A stretch of 64,000 bases of DNA, taken from positions 59,640 to 123,639 of the forward strand of contig JAFVSK010000010.1 of NCBI GenBank assembly GCA_017503785.1, given 5' to 3'. The DNA is from Clostridia bacterium. GTDB taxonomy: Bacteria > Bacillota > Clostridia > Oscillospirales > Acutalibacteraceae. Made by a program: the position numbers and the translations under genes. Positions 34,492 to 47,704 of the stretch are shown here, one piece after another. The notes below the pieces were generated by a model, which was given only the letters and a program-made list of their open reading frames with translations, had not been told where the DNA came from and ran no database searches. Within the stretch, counting starts at the first letter, position 1. Each line of letters opens with the position of its first letter.

Positions 34492-36141
34492 TCATTGTTT
34501 TTGAGCGATTTCCTGCATCTCACCGACAAACTTATAATATATCCGTATCGATTGCTGAAACTCGGAATTTCTATGACTTGCCTTGACTTTTCCCTCGGGC
34601 AGAATCTTCGGTCCTACCTCGATTCTGTCAATAAAGGTAAGCAAGGTTTCCCTGTCAAGCACGTCGATATGGGTATATTTTTTTGTCAGTTCAAAAAACT
34701 GTTTGTAGTTGTCGCTTTTGCTCGTCTGCACCGCATCGTCGCTAAGCTCTGCCAACTCTTTTCTAATTTGAACGGATTCCCTTTGCAAATCATCAACCAT
34801 AGAACTCAGTCTGTCATCGTCAAGTCGTCCCTCGGCATTATCCACGTAAAGCTTTGGTATGATCTTATCGATGACAGCCAGTCTGCCTTGCAGCTTCTCG
34901 GTGCGCTGTTTGCGAGCAAGCATTGCCTTTTCGGAGTTTTCCTCCTTCATCACCTTTGCAACGATACGCTCGATTTGCTTATCACTCAAAGAAATTAAGG
35001 AGTTTAAATCATCGCGAATTAGCGCAATAAGGTCAGCATAGCGGATTCGTGTGCCCGTGCAGGGCTCATTGATGTCTTTGCGCTTGTTGATGCAAGAAAG
35101 ATACCAATACTTTTCGCGTTCACCTTTATAGACTGTTCCGCAAGAACATAAAGCGTGTCCACAAAGTTCACAGTATGCCACACCCGAAAAGATGCTCTTT
35201 CGCACGTGGTCATACTGCTGAAAATTACGAGTGCCCTTACCCATATTCTCGTGAGCCCTATTAAAAGTATCTTCACACACCAAGGCTTCGTGGGTATTCT
35301 CGGTTATTACCCAATTTTCTTGCGGTATGGCAATCTTTTTATTGGATTTAACGCTTGCCTTCTTACTCTTTCCCAGCACCGTATGGCCTAAATACACGCG
35401 ATTTTTGAGTATACGCTTGACCGTTGTATAGTTCCAAAGATCCGAAGCTCTTGCAGCACCTTTCTCACTGAATTCATCTCGGTACAGCACGCGATATTTT
35501 AGCGGTGGTATGATACCGTCATTGTTTAAATCCTGCGCTATTTTCCTTGAAGAATCTCCGTTGGCAGCTGCCACAAAAATCCGTTTCACGATTGGTGCCG
35601 TCATCTCATCTGGCACCAATTGGTTTTTGTTTCTCTCAGCTTTCTTATACCCATAAGGCGGACAGGCACAGTAAAGTCCCTCTTGCCTTTTTGTTCGAAG
35701 CACATCCTTAACCTTGCGCGAACCGTCACGCAAATATACCTCGTTCATAGCAAATTGAAACGGTGCCATAATGTTTTCATTTTCGCTATCAAAATTGTCG
35801 GCTATAGCAATATATCGAATACCATTCTCTGGGAAAAACCGCTCAGCATAGTAGCTTGACTCTCCCATATCACGACCGAGACGGGATAAGTCTTTAGTAA
35901 TAACCGTATTAGCAAGACCTTTGTCCAGTTCGCGCATCATATGCTGAAAGCCCGGTCTGTTAAAGTTACCGCCGGAATAACCGTCATCTATAAACTCACG
36001 GACAAGTGTAATGCCGTTTTGTTTGCAGTAATTCTCAACGATCATTCTCTGGTTGCTGATACTCGAAGATTCGCCCTTTTGTGCTTCCTCTTTTGAAAGT
36101 CGGAGATAGGCAAAGCAAAGCATCTTCTGTTCGATTCTCAT
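34492..36141 (-). CDS. Large serine recombinase (integrase/excisionase of the element)
   Basis: The 549-residue protein has the resolvase catalytic domain first (residues 8-150; active-site Ser16 in YLRLSKEE, then KDLSRLGRD), the Recombinase domain (about 160-275; CPPYGYKK, IFVAAANGDSSRKIA), a zinc ribbon with CELCGHALCSC (about 325-370) and a coiled-coil region rich in K/E (about 395-465). This is the architecture of phiC31/TnpX-like integrases. AAGGAGGTAAT precedes the ATG. It overlaps the upstream 62-residue gene as ATGA. Its position 35 bp from the left junction makes it the likely enzyme for integration at the SASP gene. Confidence 0.93.
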   Translation of the reverse strand: MRIEQKMLCFAYLRLSKEEAQKGESSSISNQRMIVENYCKQNGITLVREFIDDGYSGGNFNRPGFQHMMRELDKGLANTVITKDLSRLGRDMGESSYYAERFFPENGIRYIAIADNFDSENENIMAPFQFAMNEVYLRDGSRKVKDVLRTKRQEGLYCACPPYGYKKAERNKNQLVPDEMTAPIVKRIFVAAANGDSSRKIAQDLNNDGIIPPLKYRVLYRDEFSEKGAARASDLWNYTTVKRILKNRVYLGHTVLGKSKKASVKSNKKIAIPQENWVITENTHEALVCEDTFNRAHENMGKGTRNFQQYDHVRKSIFSGVAYCELCGHALCSCGTVYKGEREKYWYLSCINKRKDINEPCTGTRIRYADLIALIRDDLNSLISLSDKQIERIVAKVMKEENSEKAMLARKQRTEKLQGRLAVIDKIIPKLYVDNAEGRLDDDRLSSMVDDLQRESVQIRKELAELSDDAVQTSKSDNYKQFFELTKKYTHIDVLDRETLLTFIDRIEVGPKILPEGKVKASHRNSEFQQSIRIYYKFVGEMQEIAQKQ

Positions 36142-37441: not shown

Positions 37442-37912
37442 TCATTCTTTATTTAATTTATATGTGCCACCGGACGTCCCTTCTCCACCTACAATCGTCA
37501 GCGTATTATCTTTCACGCTGAATGTATAGGAGCAATCATGCACTGCTTCGTTTTCAAAATCCATACTTAGCGTATTCCCGTTAATTTTATAGGAATATTC
37601 ATAGTGAGTATCTGATAAGCACATACACCCTTTGCCGTATCCATCAAATTCATATTTCGTATACTGATCATACATCCAAGCACCACTTAAAGCATCGGCT
37701 TTCGTAGGATCGTTCTTTGTATCACTTGGCTTAAATAAAAAGATTGATATTACTGCAATAACTGCTATCACAACAATTAATCCCACAATTGTCAACATTC
37801 TTTGGCGCTGACGTCGTTTTCGAGCTGCAATTCTTGCATTATATCTTCTATATGATTGTTGCTCGGATTTACTCGCATTTTGCCTTCTACGCCCATTTTC
37901 TTCGTTATACAT
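37442..37912 (-). CDS. Single-pass membrane protein with a lipocalin-like extracellular domain (DUF5640-like)
   Basis: The 156-residue protein has a polar, arginine-rich cytoplasmic N-terminus (residues 1-38, with RKRRQRQR), one membrane helix (about 39-61; VGLIVVIAVIAVISIFLF), and a small extracellular beta domain beginning LSGAWMYDQYTKYEFDGYG and ending GGTYKLNKE, which looks like the DUF5640/lipocalin-like group. It is the last gene of the surface operon, 65 bp after the LPXTG-like protein. Its role is unknown. Confidence 0.7.
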   Translation of the reverse strand: MYNEENGRRRQNASKSEQQSYRRYNARIAARKRRQRQRMLTIVGLIVVIAVIAVISIFLFKPSDTKNDPTKADALSGAWMYDQYTKYEFDGYGKGCMCLSDTHYEYSYKINGNTLSMDFENEAVHDCSYTFSVKDNTLTIVGGEGTSGGTYKLNKE

Positions 37913-37977: not shown

Positions 37978-40488
37978 TTATCTTGCTCTCTTTTTGTTAA
38001 ATACAACAGTAGAAAAGATTCCAAGTGCGGAAACCATCAAAAGTACAAACCAGAGAAGGAGATTACTGTTATCACCAGTCTGAGGGCTATTTGAGTCAGT
38101 AGAAACACCTACATTGTATCCACATACATCACACTTGCCGTCTGTATTAGCATCCTTGTGAGCTGCGGTTTCGATCTTGTTACCGCAAGCGCATTCTTTC
38201 CAGTGATTTTCAGCATCGGTGTTTACCCATTCGCCGTAGCTGTGTTCACCCTTTGCAACAACGGTGTCTTCAGCCTTGATTTCAGTTTTAGCTTCTGCAT
38301 CAGCAAAGAGCAACGAACAGCCGGAGCAGGTGTAATACTTGATATTACCTGCTGCTTCGTGAGTTGCAGGGTTAGCAGGTACTTCGGTGGTCTTGTGACC
38401 AGCAGGAATAGGTTCGCCATCCTTGATCTTGGTGTTACAATCCTTGCACCATGTGTCACCGGTATATCCATCTTTGTCACAAGTTGCAGGTTCTGCACCT
38501 CTTATCTCGGTTTCACCGACATGATTATTTGAATTAACAGTACCGTATTCTACATTGCAGGTAGAGCAAACAGCTTTTGCCTTGCAAGTAGCAGTACCGC
38601 CACTATGCTCGGCCTTGTCAATCAAGTTTCCGCAACCTACGGTCTTACATTCTTTCCAGTGATGAGTCGGATCGGTAGACCAAACGGATTCGGGTACGTG
38701 ATCACCAAGTGCCAAATTAGAACCGGAAGTTATGATCTGACGGCAACTCTGACACTTAATGTCGCCAGTATAACCGGGAGTAACACAGTCAGATTCTCTC
38801 TGTCCTTCAACATAGGTACCGCCAACATGGTTGTTAGCATCTACAGTTCCATATTTGAAGGTTTCGGTTGCATGGGCAGTTCCGCATACAGAGCAGCTCT
38901 TCTTATAAATTGCCTGTGCAACGCAAGTAGCCTTACTTACAAGGTACTTAGCATCATGATTCTCTACATAATCACAGGGAGCGAAGTCACCGTAAGTCAA
39001 ATGACATACGGAGCATTCCTTCTTTGTCTGGCAGGTAGCAGTACCACCGGTGTGCGTACCAAGATCCTTCTTATCGTGGCAAACAGTACATTCATGCCAG
39101 TGGTTTGTGCCATCATCAGACCAAGTATTGCTGTAACTATGGGTTATGGTGCGAACATGACCACAGGTGTTACATGTTGTGTCGCAGGTGTTATCGTACT
39201 TATGGTCACCAACCTCGATCTTATTACCGCATCCGCATTCCTTCCAGTGCTGATCAGCATCGGTATTCACCCAATTGCCGTAGCTATGAGAAGGAGTGCT
39301 TCCGGTCAATGCTTCGAGAGTGGTTTCAACCTTTGTTTCGGTGAAATACTTATTACACAAAGAACACTGATAGTGAGCTGCAACGGCAGGAGACAAGGTG
39401 TCCGGTGTATGCTTTTCATCTACGGCAGTCTTTAACTCACCGTAGTTGTGATCACCATAGAACTTGGTGTCAGAGCCGGAAGTAACAACGCCACAGTCAA
39501 CGCATTTTTCATAGGCGTTATTTCCCATATGTACGCAGGTTGCTGTATCAGCGGAAAAAGGCTGAATGTTGGTGTGGTTGTTACCATCTTTACTGGTGGT
39601 GGGGATGGCATTGATCTTGGTTGTGCCATCGGCTGCGAACAACTGACCGCAAGCATCACAGGTGTAATATGCATCCCAACCGCCTTCCTGACAGTTCGCA
39701 GTCTTGGCATTGGTGAGTGTCTTGGCGGTGTGTGCGCAAGTAACAGTGACTACGCAAACATCGGTGAAGCCGCCATCTACAGTCTTAACGGTAATGGTAG
39801 TAGTGCCATGCTTCAGTGCGGTAACTACGCCGTTCTCAACGGTAGCGACAGTCTTATCGCTGCTATCCCAAGTAACAGTCTTGTCGGTTGCCTTGTTAGG
39901 ATCGACAGTAGCAACGAGAGTTGCCGTCTTGTTGTCGCCGGTATCAAGTGCAAGAGTATCCTTATCAAGTGTTACACCAGTAACAGGAATTACAACGTTT
40001 ACTTTTGCGCCGTCATTAACGGTCTGAGTGGTGAACTCTTCAAAGTTAGTATCACTCAGTGCTACGTTCGCAAAATCGGGAACGAGAACACCGGTTTCGG
40101 CATTAGCGGCAACAGTACAGCTGAATGTAACAATTACAGTGTCATTGGCACTGCTATAATCACCTGAGCCATACATAGCGAACAATTTGTACTCATCTTC
40201 CCAAACCGCCTGAACACATCCAAGAGTGCTCACAAGGTTGTCTGCCAGTTTTCCGGAGCCTTCTACATATACGAGACCCTGCGGAATAACAATTTCAAAA
40301 TCGGCACCCATTAGGTGCTCAATCGAACCAATCGACACTGTATAATTTATGGTGTCGCCGGGAGCAGCAGTTGTTTTATCTGCTGTCACCTTAAGTGTTG
40401 TATCGCTTGCCGCCAAAGCTACCGTCATCGGAACGAGACCGATGATAAGAGCCAACGATAAAACAAGCGCCAAAATTCTTTTTTTCAT
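37978..40488 (-). CDS. Cell-wall-anchored cohesin/Ig-like surface protein with Cys-pair repeats and an LPXTG-like signal
   Basis: The 836-residue protein has a signal peptide (ILALVLSLALIIGLVPMTVALA), a cohesin-like beta domain (about 27-165), a Big_2-type Ig domain (about 165-245; TWDSSDKTVATVENGVVTAL), and a long region (about 250-790) of repeated modules with CxxC pairs, tryptophans and His, such as HWKECGCGNKIE. It ends with a sorting signal: SPQTG at 801-805, a hydrophobic stretch and KKRAR. A host sortase would be needed; none is in the window. It would be the wall-attached member of the operon. Repeats of this kind occur in many gut Clostridia surface proteins, with unknown ligands. 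Confidence 0.85.
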   Translation of the reverse strand: MKKRILALVLSLALIIGLVPMTVALAASDTTLKVTADKTTAAPGDTINYTVSIGSIEHLMGADFEIVIPQGLVYVEGSGKLADNLVSTLGCVQAVWEDEYKLFAMYGSGDYSSANDTVIVTFSCTVAANAETGVLVPDFANVALSDTNFEEFTTQTVNDGAKVNVVIPVTGVTLDKDTLALDTGDNKTATLVATVDPNKATDKTVTWDSSDKTVATVENGVVTALKHGTTTITVKTVDGGFTDVCVVTVTCAHTAKTLTNAKTANCQEGGWDAYYTCDACGQLFAADGTTKINAIPTTSKDGNNHTNIQPFSADTATCVHMGNNAYEKCVDCGVVTSGSDTKFYGDHNYGELKTAVDEKHTPDTLSPAVAAHYQCSLCNKYFTETKVETTLEALTGSTPSHSYGNWVNTDADQHWKECGCGNKIEVGDHKYDNTCDTTCNTCGHVRTITHSYSNTWSDDGTNHWHECTVCHDKKDLGTHTGGTATCQTKKECSVCHLTYGDFAPCDYVENHDAKYLVSKATCVAQAIYKKSCSVCGTAHATETFKYGTVDANNHVGGTYVEGQRESDCVTPGYTGDIKCQSCRQIITSGSNLALGDHVPESVWSTDPTHHWKECKTVGCGNLIDKAEHSGGTATCKAKAVCSTCNVEYGTVNSNNHVGETEIRGAEPATCDKDGYTGDTWCKDCNTKIKDGEPIPAGHKTTEVPANPATHEAAGNIKYYTCSGCSLLFADAEAKTEIKAEDTVVAKGEHSYGEWVNTDAENHWKECACGNKIETAAHKDANTDGKCDVCGYNVGVSTDSNSPQTGDNSNLLLWFVLLMVSALGIFSTVVFNKKRAR

Positions 40489-40507: not shown

Positions 40508-41437
40508 CTACCAAAGCAGATTTGTTTTTCTTACATGTGCGAATATACGGTTTACATCCGTTGTATTCACCTTACCGTCTGTACCAATTACGTCTGCACA
40601 GGTTAATTCATACCCAGTGAGAAAATTGGTCTTTCGCACATGTGCAAATGCACGGTTTACGTCAGTCGTATTTACACGGCCATTACCGTCAATATCACCC
40701 TTAAGATGAATTTTCAGAGCTTCGGTAATATCTTCTCGCTCTACTGTGATTTCGTAAGTTCTTGTTGCGTGATTGAGTTTTGATACCTCAATCGTATAAG
40801 TGCCGGGTGAAACCGAGCTAAAACTGTAAGTGCCATCCGTAGATGTAACTTTGTCTATCTCTGTACCATTCTCCAACAAGCGAAGTGTGACAGGCTCGGT
40901 AGCCTCTCCAAAGCTCGTTATCGTACCTTTCACCGTACTACCGGTGGAGATTTTTCCGTTCATCACATTGCAATCAACCTGCGTAGACATGGCATTCGCA
41001 ATATCCTGCGGTAAATAGCGAACCGTTAGTTCAAAATCACCTTTTGCTGATTCGTTAATTCTGAAGGTAAGGTTCATTAAGACGCCGTCTTCTGCAATAT
41101 CACCATCTACTGTAAACCATGGTAATGATAATTCACCATTAACCGAATCATTAACAGGTGTAAACGTGCCACTTGTTAGAATCTCACCTTCATCAGCAGA
41201 AACAAACGTCAATCCTTCCACATCATATTTCACAACAAAGAAAAATATGGATATTCCCGGATTATTACTGATCGTAACGGGTACTGTTACCTCGTCGCCG
41301 ACCTTTCCTTCGGCTTCACCGAATTTAATTTCGGTGGTAGCACCAGCTGCCAAAACAGTTGGTGCTATACCAATACTTAAAAATAATAAGATGATTGCCA
41401 GAAGGAAAGATATTGGTTTGTTCAATATCTTTTTCAT
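40508..41437 (-). CDS. Secreted cohesin-dockerin protein
   Basis: The 309-residue protein has a signal peptide (residues 1-30), a cohesin domain (about 32-160; TEIKFGEAEGKVGDEVTVPV), a carboxypeptidase-regulatory-like beta domain (about 165-240; VKGTITSFGEATEPVTLRL), and a type I dockerin (about 245-309) made of two calcium-binding repeats, GDIDGNGRVNTTDVNRAF and GTDGKVNTTDVNRIF. The second repeat is GTDG rather than DxNxD-like. Having both cohesin and dockerin it could link other members into a chain. The start at 41437 overlaps the stop of the upstream gene by 2-3 bases of spacing and has GGAGG upstream. Confidence 0.85.
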   Translation of the reverse strand: MKKILNKPISFLLAIILLFLSIGIAPTVLAAGATTEIKFGEAEGKVGDEVTVPVTISNNPGISIFFFVVKYDVEGLTFVSADEGEILTSGTFTPVNDSVNGELSLPWFTVDGDIAEDGVLMNLTFRINESAKGDFELTVRYLPQDIANAMSTQVDCNVMNGKISTGSTVKGTITSFGEATEPVTLRLLENGTEIDKVTSTDGTYSFSSVSPGTYTIEVSKLNHATRTYEITVEREDITEALKIHLKGDIDGNGRVNTTDVNRAFAHVRKTNFLTGYELTCADVIGTDGKVNTTDVNRIFAHVRKTNLLW

Positions 41438-41439
41438 TC

Positions 41440-44400
41440 TTATGCCTCCGGAACACCTGCCGCAATGATCCATTGCTGAAGCATGATAACATCGTGAATG
41501 TCAATAATGGTGTCTTCGTTGACATCAGCAGAAAGGAGCTGTTTTTCAGTTAAGGTCATTCCCTTACCGGAAACGTATTGTGCAAGCTGGAGAAGGTCTA
41601 CCATGTGATACTCACGATCGCCATTAAGGTCACCAAGCCAGTAAGAACGAACTTCAACATTACCGCCTGCAGCGTTAAAGATCACATTATTGCCTTCCAA
41701 GTTGCCATTGTCATTTTCATTAAATGCAATATTAATTTCTGCATTGCCATCGGCTGCTGTTTCAAGAACAACAAACTCAATGTTGTATGCAACATTACTT
41801 GCAGCTACGTCTTCAACATCGAACCACAAAACTGTGATTTCACCTTCATCCACATTATCGGTATTAACAATTACTGTTCCATTTGCAAAATACTCACCTA
41901 ATGTAACATTCTTGTATTCCAATCTTGTATGGTCAAAAGTAATAGTGTGGGTAAATCCTGCAAGTCCTGTGTTTTTAGTAATGGATACAGGAACCGTAAT
42001 TGTTTCACCAAGTCTTGCGATGCCGTCGCCAACCTTAATTTCGCCGCCAGTAACAACGGTAACCCTCTCTTTAACCGTAACTGCAAAATCACGAGAAATG
42101 TCGCCATATGCGATAGTAACAACCTTTGTTCCAGGGGTTTGGCTATCAAAGCCGCTCACTTCATAATCGGTTACCGCATAATTTTCGCCATTATTATAAT
42201 AGGCGGTTGCAACCATATCACTAAGGTCGAGATTTTCTCCAAGATAGTATGTGAGTTTTGAAGGTATTGTAGTGATTTGGAAATCAGAGAGAACTTTCTC
42301 GTTCATAAAGATTTCAAAGCTATCGGTAAATCCTGCATAGGAAACCGTAATAATGTGTGTTCCCGGTGTAGTACTAAAGCCTACTAAACTATAATCCGTG
42401 ATTTCCTGTTCACTATCGTCATTGTAAAAAGCCTTAACCACAAGTCCGGTTGTGTCAAGTGTTTCACCGGCATTGTAACCATACTTCGTGGGAAGAGAGG
42501 TAATATCAATATTAGTAACAATCTTTTCTCTCACAGTCACGACAAATGTTGTACTTACACCACCGGATGCTATTACAACATTGTTTATGCCGATTTTTCC
42601 AGTGAAACCACTGATATTATAATCTGTAATCACTTCTGTTGTGCCGTTATTGTACGTTGCAACAACTACCGCACCGGTCATATCAAGCTCTTGGCCTTGA
42701 ATATAATCTAAAACATTGGGAAGTTGGGTTATCTCGATGTTTGCAAGTTGTTTTTCAACTACTGTGATTTCAAAGGTGTCATTAAATCCGTAGTAAGTTA
42801 CTATGATTGTTTGAGTGCCAACCTTATTGCTATAACCGGTCAATTCATATTGATAAGGCTGAAGCACCTTTGTGCTTCCATCGTTGTAATCGGCAACAAC
42901 CTTAAGGCCTGCGGAATTAAATACATCATCTTTAATATAGGTGGTTTTATACGGCAGTTTTTCAACCGAAATACCGACCAAACGATAAGCAATAATTTTA
43001 ATATCAAAGGTTACAGTTTTTCCGCCAACAGTTACGGTAGCAGTTTGCGTACCATAGGTTGAATTATCAATACCGGTAACGATTGCCGCTGTAACGTCAA
43101 TATCCGCAGTAGCACCGCCTTCATAGGTTGCGCGAACTACGGCACCGGTATAATCAACGGGTCTGTCCTTAACAAATTCAGTCTTATCGGGGCCGGAAAC
43201 TAATACTAAATTAGTTACAGTCGGATATTCCTTAACCGTAATATCAAATGTTACGGAACTTCCACCCATAGAAACGGTTACAGTTTTTGTGCCAACCGTA
43301 CTACTATCAAAGCCGGATACCATAGTTTCTGTAACGTCAAGAGCCTCAAATAATCCAGAAACATAAACAACTTCAACTTTAGCACCAGTAAGGTTAAGCT
43401 TTTCACCGATATAATATTCTTTATCGGTAGGTTCGGCTATCCAGCTCATTTCCTCAACCTTTTGCTCAAGATTTTGAGGGTTGCTGCGAAGTTGGGGATA
43501 GGGATATTCAGCATAAGGATCGGAAATCCAAGTTTCCTCAAAGTCAAACCCAACTAAAAATGATTGATCTTTGAGTTGCTCTTCAGTAAGTGGTGTAGCA
43601 CCTTTACACGTAGCGCCATCTGAATAATAACTATTCTTTATACTTGTTAAAGAGTCTGATGATGTATCTGCAATGGCATAACGTCGTGACGAAGTTCCTC
43701 CAGATATCGAACCCATATTATAACAATTTACAATATTGCAACCTCTAACTGATATGCCGCCAGCAGTATAGGCGGAAACATCTCCAGTATTATAACAATC
43801 TATAACACTTCCACCGTTTCCACATATTCCTCCGGCATAAAAACTGCTACTACTACCAGTTGTTTTTACAACAGCGTTATTGTAGCACTTGCTAATGGTT
43901 CCGTTTGCGTTGTTGCCCGCAATACCACCGGAATAACTTGTGCTGGTATCACCGGTTGTAGGAGCACCAGTTACTAAACCTGTTACTGAGCAATCGCTTA
44001 TAATGCCTTTATTTGAACCAGCAATTCCTCCAGTATAAACATGGGATTTACCCCACGCTTTTATAATATTTACCTCTTTCATATTGAGGTTACGTACTAC
44101 ACCTGCTACCTTTGAGAATAATCCAACATAAGCAGTATCACTCATACCAGAAGCTTTATTACTGCTAGTATATTCAATGCGCATACCGATAATCGAATAA
44201 CCGTTTCCATCAAAGATACCAATAAATTCGTCACCGGCATAAATATCGTTACTGCCGATAGGATTCCAACCGCGACCACCAAAATCATAACCGCCTCCTG
44301 CTGCTGTCGCTTCAGTCAAATCTATATCATTCATAAGGATATAGTTTGCAGAAAGGTCATTGCGTATATTATATAAGTCGGCAATCGTGTAAATTTCAAT

Positions 44401-45855
44401 AAAAGGTTTTTCAACTATCTCTATTTCAAAAGTAAAGATTTTTAACGGATGAGTAATCGTAATCGTTTGAGTTCCGACAATACTCATATCATAACCACTT
44501 ACCATATCGTTGGTTACCGTCACAAACTCTGTTGGACTATTCGCAAAGACAAAACGTAAAGAGCATCCACTAATGTCGAATTCATCAAACTTATTATATT
44601 TTGTTTTAGGAAGCGAATAAATATCTGCCTCTACTAATTCACGATCATCTTGAATGTTGAATTTTAACTGAGGGTAAGGATGTATAGCGTTTGGATTCAG
44701 TATCCAAACGTTTTCAAAATCGAATCCCGTATACAGTGATGTCTTAAGCATTTGTGATTCTGTTAAAACAGTTGCGCCTGTTGAGGTTGTCCCTGTACCT
44801 TTAAGATAGTAGCAATTAGAAATCGTGCCCGAACCAACACCCTTACCAGCGCCACTATTAACGTTACCCACATTGTAAGAGGTCGAAATATTCTCCGCAG
44901 AACATGTGATACCGCTATAGGTATTTGTTGAATAGATTTCCTCGCCGGATATCACGCCTGAATTATAAGAATTTTCAACTGAACCACCATATGAAATACC
45001 ATTTACATAAGAATATGCATCTTCCGTTTTAATGTATCCACCCGTTAAAGTGCCAACAAATGTTTGATATGCTACGCTTTTTGAATAGATATCTCCGCTG
45101 TTATAAGCCCTGGAAATTGTGGAATTTGCAACTTTGCCGGCAATACCTGAAACATAAGCCTTGCTTGTATGTCCGCTAATATAAGTTTCAACTTTTCCGT
45201 TATTTGCACACATGTTTATTGTGCTATTAGAAACGTTGCCAACAATACCACCTGCATATACATATTTAGCAGTGGAAGTATCGGCACTACCGGATTTTGC
45301 ATACACATCAACAAATGATTTGCACCCTTCAAATAGAGCACCTTCGCTAGTGCCGGCCAAACCGCCGATGTAAATATCTTTGGATGTGTTTGAAAAACTA
45401 ATGTTTCCTGCAACAGAAAGGTTTTTCACTACACCATCAACACGAGCAAATAATCCGACATAAACCGTTGTATCTGTGCCCGAAGGTACATTTGTTGCAT
45501 CGATTCTTAAGCCGATTATGGAACGTCCATTGCCATCAAAGATGCCCGTAAATGCTTCTGCTCCATAAACATCGTTGCTACCAATCGGATTCCAACCATT
45601 TCCGTCAAAATCCCACTCGCCACCTTGTGCCGTTGCAGTTGTAAGGTCAATGTCATCCATTAAAATGTAGTTAGCGGTTAAATCATTACGAATGTTATAA
45701 AGATCTTCTATGGTTCTAACCTCTATATATCCGTTCTCGTTAACGTTTGTGCTTGTAACCGCAATTGCGTTCATCGGCATAACCGAGAACAGCATCGCTA
45801 CTGCAAGCAGCAAGGCAAATAAACGCCTGCCTTTCCAACTAATTTGTTTTGTCAT
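41440..45855 (-). CDS. Giant surface protein: two GLUG beta-helix modules, seven Ig-like repeats, cohesin and dockerin
   Basis: The 1471-residue protein has a signal peptide (FALLLAVAMLFSVMPMNAIA). Two homologous modules begin with EVRTIEDLYNIRNDL (about 43) and EIYTIADLYNIRNDL (about 485); each contains GLUG-type strands such as YAGGIVGN and YSGGIAGNN. Group-3-like Ig units occur once between the modules and six times in tandem (about 800-1265), each ending in a pattern like VGTKTVTVSMGG. A cohesin (about 1265-1400; EIKVGDGIARLGETITVPV) and a dockerin (about 1403-1471; GDLNGDREYHMVDLLQLAQYV) follow. There is no wall anchor, so attachment must come through cohesin-dockerin contacts. GLUG and Ig regions suggest adhesion or an IgA-protease-like stalk, not catalysis. 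Confidence 0.85.
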   Translation of the reverse strand: MTKQISWKGRRLFALLLAVAMLFSVMPMNAIAVTSTNVNENGYIEVRTIEDLYNIRNDLTANYILMDDIDLTTATAQGGEWDFDGNGWNPIGSNDVYGAEAFTGIFDGNGRSIIGLRIDATNVPSGTDTTVYVGLFARVDGVVKNLSVAGNISFSNTSKDIYIGGLAGTSEGALFEGCKSFVDVYAKSGSADTSTAKYVYAGGIVGNVSNSTINMCANNGKVETYISGHTSKAYVSGIAGKVANSTISRAYNSGDIYSKSVAYQTFVGTLTGGYIKTEDAYSYVNGISYGGSVENSYNSGVISGEEIYSTNTYSGITCSAENISTSYNVGNVNSGAGKGVGSGTISNCYYLKGTGTTSTGATVLTESQMLKTSLYTGFDFENVWILNPNAIHPYPQLKFNIQDDRELVEADIYSLPKTKYNKFDEFDISGCSLRFVFANSPTEFVTVTNDMVSGYDMSIVGTQTITITHPLKIFTFEIEIVEKPFIEIYTIADLYNIRNDLSANYILMNDIDLTEATAAGGGYDFGGRGWNPIGSNDIYAGDEFIGIFDGNGYSIIGMRIEYTSSNKASGMSDTAYVGLFSKVAGVVRNLNMKEVNIIKAWGKSHVYTGGIAGSNKGIISDCSVTGLVTGAPTTGDTSTSYSGGIAGNNANGTISKCYNNAVVKTTGSSSSFYAGGICGNGGSVIDCYNTGDVSAYTAGGISVRGCNIVNCYNMGSISGGTSSRRYAIADTSSDSLTSIKNSYYSDGATCKGATPLTEEQLKDQSFLVGFDFEETWISDPYAEYPYPQLRSNPQNLEQKVEEMSWIAEPTDKEYYIGEKLNLTGAKVEVVYVSGLFEALDVTETMVSGFDSSTVGTKTVTVSMGGSSVTFDITVKEYPTVTNLVLVSGPDKTEFVKDRPVDYTGAVVRATYEGGATADIDVTAAIVTGIDNSTYGTQTATVTVGGKTVTFDIKIIAYRLVGISVEKLPYKTTYIKDDVFNSAGLKVVADYNDGSTKVLQPYQYELTGYSNKVGTQTIIVTYYGFNDTFEITVVEKQLANIEITQLPNVLDYIQGQELDMTGAVVVATYNNGTTEVITDYNISGFTGKIGINNVVIASGGVSTTFVVTVREKIVTNIDITSLPTKYGYNAGETLDTTGLVVKAFYNDDSEQEITDYSLVGFSTTPGTHIITVSYAGFTDSFEIFMNEKVLSDFQITTIPSKLTYYLGENLDLSDMVATAYYNNGENYAVTDYEVSGFDSQTPGTKVVTIAYGDISRDFAVTVKERVTVVTGGEIKVGDGIARLGETITVPVSITKNTGLAGFTHTITFDHTRLEYKNVTLGEYFANGTVIVNTDNVDEGEITVLWFDVEDVAASNVAYNIEFVVLETAADGNAEINIAFNENDNGNLEGNNVIFNAAGGNVEVRSYWLGDLNGDREYHMVDLLQLAQYVSGKGMTLTEKQLLSADVNEDTIIDIHDVIMLQQWIIAAGVPEA

Positions 45856-45859
45856 TTTA

Positions 45860-46801
45860 TTAACCCCTTTCTAAGAGTATATTGTTTTTGCATTTAGAAC
45901 AAAACTTTTCTTTATAATCACATTTAGAGCATATATTCATTTCGATTTCGCCAGCATTTTCGCTAAGACTGGTTCTCGAAGTTTTGAGTATAAACTCTTT
46001 AATGTGTTTGTACTTATCTAGTTCAGATTTATCTGCAATTTCTGGAGCGCACATTATCTTTATGTATTTAATTTGCTCATCCTTTAAACTCCATAAAATC
46101 GCATATTCTTTATTCGGATCGATTAATTCACCTACATCACCAATCAATTTAATCAGCAATCGAGATTCTTTTTCGTAATACCATATAAGGCTTTTGTTAA
46201 AGCCCAAATGATGGTTTTTATATTTTTCATATTCCTCGACTGAAACATTACCGTGATTGGTCATTGTATTATATTTCAAATCAACGCTCGTACCGTCCCT
46301 TGCATAATGAGAATATAGAATATCTTGGAATACAAGTTCCATGTTTTCACCATTCTTCAACGGTATTTTTATGCCAATACTCTTGTTATTCTCATAATCA
46401 TACTCGGTTAAAAAGAACTCTCCTTCACTTATGAACTGCATCAATTTTTTGTATGTAAGGCTAATTCGACCGCCTTTTCCGTCAACACCGGAATATAGAT
46501 ACCATAGAGACAAGTTTTCATTTGAGCCAGTACTAAAGCATAAAGAATAGTGTCTTTTTTGTTCCAACAAGGTTCCGAATTGCTCTTTATCCTTCTTATC
46601 ATTAAACCGATTAGAAGAAGAAATGCGGATGGTTTTACTACCTAAGATAGCATCTATTGCTCTCAAAGAGGTGTAATGAAAAAATTCTTTATGACCCCGT
46701 GTTCTTATATCAAAATACTTTTCAAGATCATCTGCCGTTTGTAAACGTGGAAAGTTTATCCACGCAGTACAGTCTTTTGGCTTATCAGTAATAAAAATCA
46801 C
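45860..46801 (-). CDS. DUF2971-type protein with a C-terminal cysteine cluster
   Basis: The roughly 313-residue cytoplasmic protein shows the DUF2971 opening FHYTSLRAIDAIL and SSNRFNDKKD (residues about 40-70), CFSTGSNENLSLWYLYS in the centre, and a C-terminal CSKCDYKEKFCSKC cluster likely to bind zinc. DUF2971 proteins have no settled function and often lie in mobile or defence regions. The start is uncertain: the frame opens with GTG at 46801, yet the best ribosome binding site (GAGGTGA at 46804-46798) is positioned for an ATT codon at 46792. It ends four bases before the giant surface gene, and it is the first gene downstream of the invertible segment. Confidence 0.72.
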   Translation of the reverse strand: MIFITDKPKDCTAWINFPRLQTADDLEKYFDIRTRGHKEFFHYTSLRAIDAILGSKTIRISSSNRFNDKKDKEQFGTLLEQKRHYSLCFSTGSNENLSLWYLYSGVDGKGGRISLTYKKLMQFISEGEFFLTEYDYENNKSIGIKIPLKNGENMELVFQDILYSHYARDGTSVDLKYNTMTNHGNVSVEEYEKYKNHHLGFNKSLIWYYEKESRLLIKLIGDVGELIDPNKEYAILWSLKDEQIKYIKIMCAPEIADKSELDKYKHIKEFILKTSRTSLSENAGEIEMNICSKCDYKEKFCSKCKNNILLERG

Positions 46802-46803
46802 CT

Positions 46804-46837
46804 CACATTCTCAAAAGGTACACCTTTTGAGAATGTG
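46804..46837. repeat. Invertase crossover site, left (34-bp perfect palindrome, core AC)
   Basis: Arms of 16 bp are perfect complements around the dinucleotide AC (46820-46821). The inner 18 bp, CAAAAGGT-AC-ACCTTTTG, is the exact reverse complement of the inner 18 bp of the right site at 46941-46974. Confidence 0.8.
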
Positions 46838-46940
46838 CCCAAAAACAACTTAAGAATCAAAATCTCTTTCCAAAATCTTCAAAATATCGCCAAAAAGGGT
46901 TGCAAATAGAGGCTTGTTGTGATAAAATATACGATGTGTA
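46838..46940. promoter_or_regulatory. Putative invertible promoter segment
   Basis: The 103 bp between the two crossover sites is A+T-rich, has no open frame and contains one strong promoter (46900-46928). On the opposite strand I see no promoter of similar quality, so only one orientation would transcribe the surface operon. Confidence 0.7.
46900..46928 (+). promoter_or_regulatory. Promoter inside the invertible segment, currently pointing away from the surface operon
   Basis: TTGCAA (46900-46905), 17-bp spacer, TAAAAT (46923-46928) with an extended -10 TG. The predicted start is near 46935, just before the right palindrome. After inversion the same promoter would face the DUF2971 gene with a start near 46843. 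Confidence 0.75.
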
Positions 46941-46972
46941 AATAGTTCCAAAAGGTGTACCTTTTGGAACTA

Positions 46973-46974
<2 letters not shown>
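46941..46974. repeat. Invertase crossover site, right (34-bp perfect palindrome, core GT)
   Basis: Arms of 16 bp are perfect complements around GT (46957-46958). It overlaps the stop codon of the invertase. On the plus strand it is followed by ATTTTTTAA, so it would also act as a terminator for the promoter at 46900-46928. Confidence 0.8.
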
Positions 46975-47605
<631 letters not shown>

Positions 47606-47640
47606 TTATAAGATTTCTCTCCAACTCTACAAATCGATAC

Positions 47641-47682
47641 AAAAAAGCAGAGATAACATAACAAGTCATCTCTGCTTAAATT
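47641..47682 (-). terminator. Terminator of the CAP-domain lipoprotein gene
   Basis: Minus strand AAGCAGAGAT and complement around a 13-base loop, followed by TTTTTT. Confidence 0.8.
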
Positions 47683-47704
47683 AGTTTTTATTCGGTTTGG
47701 ATTT

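Follow-up and report, generated by a model that had tools for sequence, protein, structure and literature searches.

A phase-variation cassette, real and very probably active to judge from comparative sequence data, lies in the window analysed here, a stretch of 64,000 nt from a Clostridia bacterium of the Acutalibacteraceae (assembly GCA_017503785.1, contig JAFVSK010000010.1, positions 59,640–123,639 of the forward strand), and it appears to have been sequenced in its OFF state. We consider it likely that the cassette is self-contained, a Sin-like recombinase inverting a promoter segment and the same flip weakening or splitting the terminator of the OFF state. In this mechanism, the serine recombinase would act on two 20-bp sites separated by a whole number of helical turns and invert the 137 bp between them, a segment with one strong promoter ~20 nt from one end. 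In the OFF state the promoter would face the recombinase and its transcript would be stopped after ~45 nt by an intrinsic terminator, the stem of which would be formed by the proximal site plus its outer arms, one in the segment end and the other in the fixed flank. Inversion would point the promoter at a five-gene surface-protein operon and, because it swaps the outer arms, would weaken or split the terminator and leave the operon leader free of it. The terminator would presumably serve to prevent antisense transcription of the recombinase gene from the OFF promoter.

Site pairs, both promoter orientations and a spacing rule are evident in the sequences of relatives; catalysis by the recombinase and termination in the cell we infer. 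Promoter inversion and orientation-dependent termination are known phenomena, and one crossover would here join the two; what appears new is the splitting of the terminator, the helical rule for site spacing and the behaviour as a cassette. With such a unit, 0.8 kb in size, gut Clostridia would have a compact on/off switch that is portable and recognisable from sequence, and its state could often be read from an assembly.

The switch region and the putative operon beside it

The first-pass annotation had described two perfect 34-bp palindromes of 16-2-16 design, 103 bp apart and oppositely oriented, with a promoter between them that carries an extended −10 box, and all of this is borne out. 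The distal (operon-side) recombination site with its outer arms occupies 46804–46837 (16-AC-16) and the proximal (recombinase-side) site 46941–46974 (16-GT-16); both are 100% palindromic over 34 bp, and the gap between them (46838–46940) is 103 bp. The 20-bp cores lie at 46811–46830 and 46948–46967, with crossover dinucleotides AC (46820–46821, the presumed place of crossover) and GT (46957–46958), respectively. The inner 18-mers (46812–46829 and 46949–46966) are exact reverse complements, which places the sites in inverted orientation. The putative invertible segment between the crossover dinucleotides (46822–46956) corresponds to a centre-to-centre distance of 137 bp, or 13 helical turns. 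A search of the 2.06-Mb genome that tolerated up to two mismatches located the inner 18-mer nowhere else; the 16-mer pattern of the palindromes, with no mismatch, occurs in one of nine genomes of the genus, namely the source genome, and in 0/8 of the others. As sequenced, the distal site forms a 15-bp RNA hairpin. The full 34-bp palindromes exist in the sequenced orientation only; a flip swaps their outer arms, undoing both hairpins.

The promoter (TTGCAA-17-TAAAAT with a TG extension, 46900–46928, plus strand) is aimed at the recombinase, the OFF direction, and its transcription start would be expected near 46935. Three promoter-like sites were found in the region vs 3.3 in shuffles, so the presence of a promoter is by itself not beyond chance; the argument for this one is its position and strength in relatives. 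Terminator-like elements numbered three vs 0.8 in shuffles, and both palindromes score as such. An Rfam scan of 46400–47700 gave no match near the gathering score (best E 0.38). Another terminator-like hairpin, read on the minus strand, lies at 47645–47677, upstream of the recombinase gene.

The small serine recombinase (201 aa; 46973–47578, minus strand) matches Resolvase (E 8e-26) and, at 23.6 bits with a cut-off of 23.8, HTH_7. It had been said to abut one site; the gene is present as described, but its stop codon (46973–46975) overlaps the proximal palindrome. Its assignment to the Hin/Gin-type invertases did not survive comparison with solved structures. The best match is 2r0q, deposited as Tn552 'bin3' (E 3e-30, residues 4–193 aligned), which we take to be Sin, consistent with the Sin-named chains beside it in the structure matches; gamma-delta (2e-19) and Tn3 resolvases follow, and two chains named only 'DNA-invertase' match at 5e-13 and 6e-13. 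The invertases of phages Mu and Fels-2 are 32–34% identical to the recombinase, and its match to the Mpi model is weak (42.5 bits, cut-off 272). Among solved structures, then, the sequence is closer to Sin-type resolvases than to Hin/Gin, and classing the enzyme as a Hin/Gin-type invertase would be inappropriate.

The putative operon consists of five same-strand genes running from 46801 down to 37442 on the minus strand, separated by gaps of at most 65 bp or overlapping. The first (45860–46801) would encode a 313-aa protein whose DUF2971 match is weak (E 0.031, below cut-off); its start codon is uncertain, and the GTG at 46801 adjoins the palindrome. It is followed by a 1471-aa protein with Big_3 repeats, Glug and a C-terminal dockerin (41440–45855), a 321-aa protein with cohesin, carboxypeptidase regulatory-like and dockerin domains in that order (40508–41473), an 836-aa protein with Big_2 and a weak cohesin match (E 2.4e-4, below cut-off; 37978–40488), and a 156-aa DUF5640 protein, last of the run (37442–37912). 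Thus the make-up first proposed, DUF2971–giant adhesin–cohesin/dockerin–LPXTG–DUF5640, stands for the Big_3/dockerin, cohesin/dockerin and DUF5640 members, but DUF2971 is only a weak match and the sortase-like signal, at the C-terminus of the 836-aa protein, reads SPQTG, with a hydrophobic stretch and a KKRAR tail. For the cohesin/dockerin surface proteins, such a switch would suggest that display is bet-hedged within the population.

Site pairs and their spacing among relatives

Relatives of the recombinase were drawn from genome contigs (the best 80 of at least 586), from genomes of the family (match in 106/200, E up to 0.001), order (103/394) and class (51/391; both at E up to 1e-50), three sets that overlap, and from viral contigs, which added 80 loci; 40 further regions were taken by place. 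Among the resulting 268 distinct recombinases, 21 with less than 300 bp downstream were left out, leaving 247. Phages yielded no close relative (best 61%), and neither did plasmids, where the 5000 matches listed were all below 60% identity. Some genomes had several matches—twelve in G132, eight each in G089 and G197, some of them partial—which suggests several switches per cell. Cultured bacteria that carry the system include Faecalicatena faecalis (L042) and Hominisplanchenecus murintestinalis (L065).

Downstream of each recombinase we searched for inverted 20-bp sites 90–320 bp apart, reverse-complementary dinucleotides being a search condition; the search was generic since a fixed consensus misses diverged sites. 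Pairs were found beside 107 of 175 recombinases at least 60% identical to that of the window, 2/44 at 50–60% identity and 0/28 below 50%, and in none of 164 control windows further downstream or 247 shuffles. Dropping two with an identical segment reduced the 109 pairs to 107 distinct segments. A relaxed search on the 68 close relatives (of 175) that had no pair recovered 7 at a score of at least 28 (0/340 shuffles) and 11 at a score of at least 26 (3/340 shuffles), each of the 11 lying no more than 2 bp from whole-turn spacing; ~60 of the 175 thus have no site pair even by relaxed search.

The half-site consensus, from 428 halves, is TCAAAARGT, with the G and T beside the crossover each at 98%, and the family consensus for the 20-bp site is TCAAAARGT-GT-ACYTTTTGA. 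In 96 of the 107 loci the proximal site starts 6–57 bp past the end of the matched recombinase. Crossover dinucleotides were GT/AC in 70 loci, AC/GT in 20, AT/AT in 7, AG/CT in 6, and AA/TT and CT/AG in 2 each. The AT/AT dinucleotide, present in L022, L077, L118, L120, L233, L245 and one more, is self-complementary and cannot on its own tell inversion from deletion; there, spacing geometry may decide. The order of the core dinucleotides (GT/AC or AC/GT) was also considered as a marker of state and rejected, because inversion leaves the cores unchanged.

Exact site pairs were also sought without regard to the recombinase. The 394 genomes gave seven, five of them beside a recombinase, and the viral contigs four, three of them beside a recombinase. 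The three exact pairs that had no recombinase of this family in the sequence examined (L296:1-2200, L297:1-1677, L298:6230-6395) may be orphan switches on which a recombinase elsewhere acts in trans, or may reflect contig ends or chance. In L296 the pair has beside it a reading frame that includes a signal-peptide-like stretch.

The pairs lie 105–257 bp apart, with centre-to-centre distances clustering near 105, 115, 126, 137, 147, 157, 167, 177 and 189 bp and three longer. At a period of 10.5 bp the Rayleigh R is 0.69 (n=107), and with the 134–139 class removed it is 0.72 (n=59, p 5e-14), a value reached by 0 of 20000 jittered sets; the pairs are not fully independent, some of the recombinases being close relatives. 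Ninety of the 107 pairs fall within 2 bp of whole turns vs ~41 expected. Such spacing may reflect a need for two enzyme dimers to meet across a short, stiff DNA loop, and it offers a way of testing directly how inversion of so short a segment by a Sin-like enzyme could work.

Promoter orientation and the predicted OFF-state terminator

The promoter scan was restricted to the segment interior because the TTGACA ending many sites gives false −35 boxes, and direction was called by a 3-bit score difference. Of the 107 segments, 82 have their best promoter aimed at the recombinase (OFF) and 12 at the downstream gene (ON), the direction being unclear in the other 13; in 100/107 loci a reading frame of 90 aa or more on the same strand begins no further than 500 bp from the distal site. 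Mean promoter scores were 13.4 in real segments vs 8.9 in shuffles, and a 3-bit difference was also reached by 27 of the 107 shuffles, so single calls are noisy. The TG extension occurs in 12/12 ON and 54/82 OFF loci, the score itself rewarding TG, and the −10 box ends 18–21 nt from the distal site in 9/12 ON loci, the mirror of OFF loci, 61/82 of which have 17–22 nt between the −10 end and the site ahead. The extension and the mirrored distance together indicate that the ON calls are mostly real. One segment (L195:7935-8093) has an internal inverted repeat, AAAGAATAACACAAA ... TTTGTGTTATTCT, possibly two facing promoters.

Homology between segments agrees with these calls. Homologous segments on the same strand comprised 32 same-state and 5 different-state pairs, whereas those on opposite strands comprised 2 and 9, respectively (Fisher 5e-5, an optimistic value because pairs share loci); seven other pairs had no called state. 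The clearest case is L058 (ON), which when flipped in silico aligns with L006 (OFF) and rebuilds its palindrome; L007 is likewise OFF. The best recombinase tree that a quick search gave requires 12 changes to explain the 12 ON rows (shuffled mean 11.6), and well-supported branches force at least seven. ON is therefore scattered like random labels, the pattern predicted if a given orientation is soon lost in descent. The closest copies (L005/L035, L006/L007, L042/L226) share their state within each pair, and neither the viral contigs nor an all-against-all segment comparison yielded opposite orientations within one species. The first-pass annotation had proposed an invertible promoter that is OFF as sequenced and a search for both states in related genomes. 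Relatives in both orientations and opposite-strand segment homology give the former good support; the latter found both states across the family (82 OFF, 12 ON), not within one species.

These orientations bear on two readings in which nothing flips. The recombinase might be a resolvase, the pair then being a res-like crossover site and an accessory site that resolve dimers, and its nearest solved relatives, Sin and gamma-delta type resolvases, would fit this; resolvase accessory sites also need helical phasing, so the spacing rule would fit too. Sin/Tn552-type resolvases, the source of the closest solved sequence, resolve directly repeated res sites, but here there is one inverted pair, and both of its sites are crossover-type palindromes with reverse-complementary dinucleotides (a search condition in the survey). 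Promoters and segments are, moreover, found in both orientations relative to the recombinase, and we regard the resolvase reading as very improbable. Alternatively, the recombinase, or some other regulator, might repress transcription by binding the palindromes as operators; operators are typically palindromes close to a promoter, and the enzyme does contain a helix-turn-helix, but this would leave unexplained both the inverted segments between relatives and the arm complementarity that flipping restores, and it seems to us more improbable still. Because segments are inverted between relatives, we rejected both readings in favor of inversion.

In the window, a predicted intrinsic terminator read toward the recombinase (46941–46982, plus strand) consists of a 15-bp stem and a 4-nt loop, then ATTTTTTA, with a folding energy of −20.4 kcal/mol (z −6.9). 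The crossover point falls within the stem, and a flip leaves an 8-pair stem that still passes the strict terminator rule. As sequenced, the distal hairpin too resembles a terminator when read toward the operon; after a flip the distal site no longer passes. The OFF state of the window is thus predicted to have two strong hairpins, of which the ON state would lose the one in the operon leader and weaken the other.

Across the family, arm complementarity follows promoter direction at the level of sequence. Just beyond the proximal site of OFF loci, flanking bases pair with each other at 59–93% over the first seven positions, vs 27–40% after partners are swapped among loci (position 2 scores high either way). 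ON loci show little such pairing as found, and flipping them in silico brings it back at several positions. Read toward the recombinase, the T fraction is 0.49–0.67 at positions 7–17 past the site, and at least five T in eight occur in 67/82 OFF loci vs 24/82 beyond the distal site. The mean energy of the proximal hairpin in OFF loci is −14.6 kcal/mol native and −8.2 flipped (p 1e-12), the hairpin being stronger as found in 69/82 and stronger flipped in 8/82. ON loci gave −6.6 native and −10.7 flipped, a difference that is not significant with n=12 (p 0.06); the flipped hairpin is stronger in 8/12 and the native one in 2/12 (L079, L216).

The strict rule gave a like picture. At the first site met by the transcript it is satisfied in 40/94 loci in the OFF arrangement vs 3/94 in the ON arrangement. 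At the proximal site of the 82 OFF loci it is satisfied in 37 native and 16 flipped; on flipping, 22 lose the terminator, 1 gains it and 15 keep it. The outer arms are assembled in 55 OFF loci, split in 3 and neither in 24, vs 0, 6 and 6, respectively, in ON loci (p 1e-6 at thresholds 3 and 2), a test that depends on thresholds (p 8e-7 to 0.06 over nine settings). Rank correlation across the full set of 107 loci is weak (rho 0.23 proximal, 0.18 distal). Three pairs on well-supported branches are independent on the tree; these agree in almost all 200 draws but are not numerous enough to reach significance.

The same hairpins could belong to an ordinary invertible promoter, in which the proximal hairpin is the recombinase gene's own 3' terminator overlapping the site and its break-up in the ON state has no function. 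The proximal site does lie close behind the gene, at 6–57 bp in 96/107 loci, and read from the recombinase into the segment the strict rule is satisfied in 25/82 OFF loci as found and 4/82 flipped, so orientation matters in this direction too. Both measures of termination are, however, higher toward the recombinase than into the segment: at least five T in eight occur in 67/82 vs 51/82, and the strict rule is satisfied in 37/82 vs 25/82. It can also be argued that a terminator serving the recombinase only could sit outside the crossover point. We consider this account unlikely, though less so than the two without inversion, and favor a terminator that acts on the OFF promoter.

Known switches and the limits of the cassette

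The nearest published switch found is cwpV of Clostridioides difficile, to judge from excerpts of its description (Emerson 2009, PMC2784873), where the junction of repeat and segment is predicted to form an intrinsic terminator only in the OFF state. Both systems have a short invertible segment before a surface-protein gene and an OFF-only junction terminator, here by prediction. In cwpV, however, the excerpts place the promoter upstream of the segment, where it is fixed, whereas here it is inside the segment and would flip; the recombinase is the distant tyrosine recombinase RecV and not a serine recombinase encoded next to the switch; and what the terminator interrupts is the gene's own transcript, not that of a promoter facing away (PMC2784873). 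E. coli fimS/fimE, as outlined in the same excerpts, likewise has an invertible promoter near a recombinase gene and orientation-dependent termination downstream of that gene, but its terminator is Rho-dependent (PMC2784873), unlike the intrinsic one predicted here, and an excerpt of PMC9993118 gives a tyrosine integrase and a 314-bp segment, compared with a serine recombinase and 137 bp.

Serine recombinases are also known in inversion. Hin/Gin systems share with ours the recombinase type, two recombination sites and inversion, and Hin is regulated by a remote Fis-bound enhancer, according to the part of PMC3798978 consulted; the enzyme described here is nearer Sin, and its pairs lie 105–257 bp apart with whole-turn spacing. 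Mpi of Bacteroides fragilis is likewise a serine recombinase that flips surface-related regions, but in the excerpts of PMC5903667 it acts on at least thirteen scattered regions, whereas here pairs were found beside their recombinase. The combination of promoter flip, split terminator and Sin-like serine recombinase was not found in full-text searches of the open-licence literature, nor in the excerpts of PMC2784873, PMC11892184, PMC7446863 and PMC5903667.

Recombinase plus switch looks like a cassette when close relatives are aligned. The unit, 0.78 kb at 46794–47572 (minus strand), has 88% DNA identity to L035, a deer-gut Clostridia assembly whose recombinase is 95% identical, and the flanks are unrelated at E 1e-5 (6.6 kb compared with 30001–52000 of the window). 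Homology runs from the first codons of the recombinase to the outer edge of the distal palindrome, the remaining matches being of the palindromes on themselves only. L020 and L272 have the same limit at the distal site; on the recombinase side of L272 only ~35 bp are available, too few to judge that edge. L006/L007 and L042/L226 are alike well beyond the cassette.

The operon had been called mobile, and mobility fits best at the scale of this 0.78-kb unit. For the operon as a whole it is suggested by two features: a large serine recombinase gene (34492–36141) lies near the operon, and homology with three congeners ends at ~33,990, before that gene, where the contig of a fourth congener also ends, which suggests the edge of an inserted region. 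Comparison with the congeners established no empty site or direct repeat for insertion of the whole operon.

Pfam families among first downstream proteins were diverse. In the 90 of 100 that were scanned, the commonest (BspA-type LRR, AMP-binding, zinc ribbons) reach 5/90, so 'surface-protein switch' is not the general rule; related units appear, by their sequences, to sit before many different genes in gut bacteria. A wider account, to which we lean only slightly, would make this a widespread mobile cassette of gut Clostridia, a plug-in on/off switch on unrelated operons, in which the recombination site is itself the terminator guarding the recombinase gene, assembled and split as the promoter turns, and in which inversion is chosen by whole-turn spacing with no enhancer. 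One of the 90 first downstream genes (alignment A2) is a ribosomal RNA adenine dimethylase and may be under such a switch; this family includes macrolide-resistance genes.
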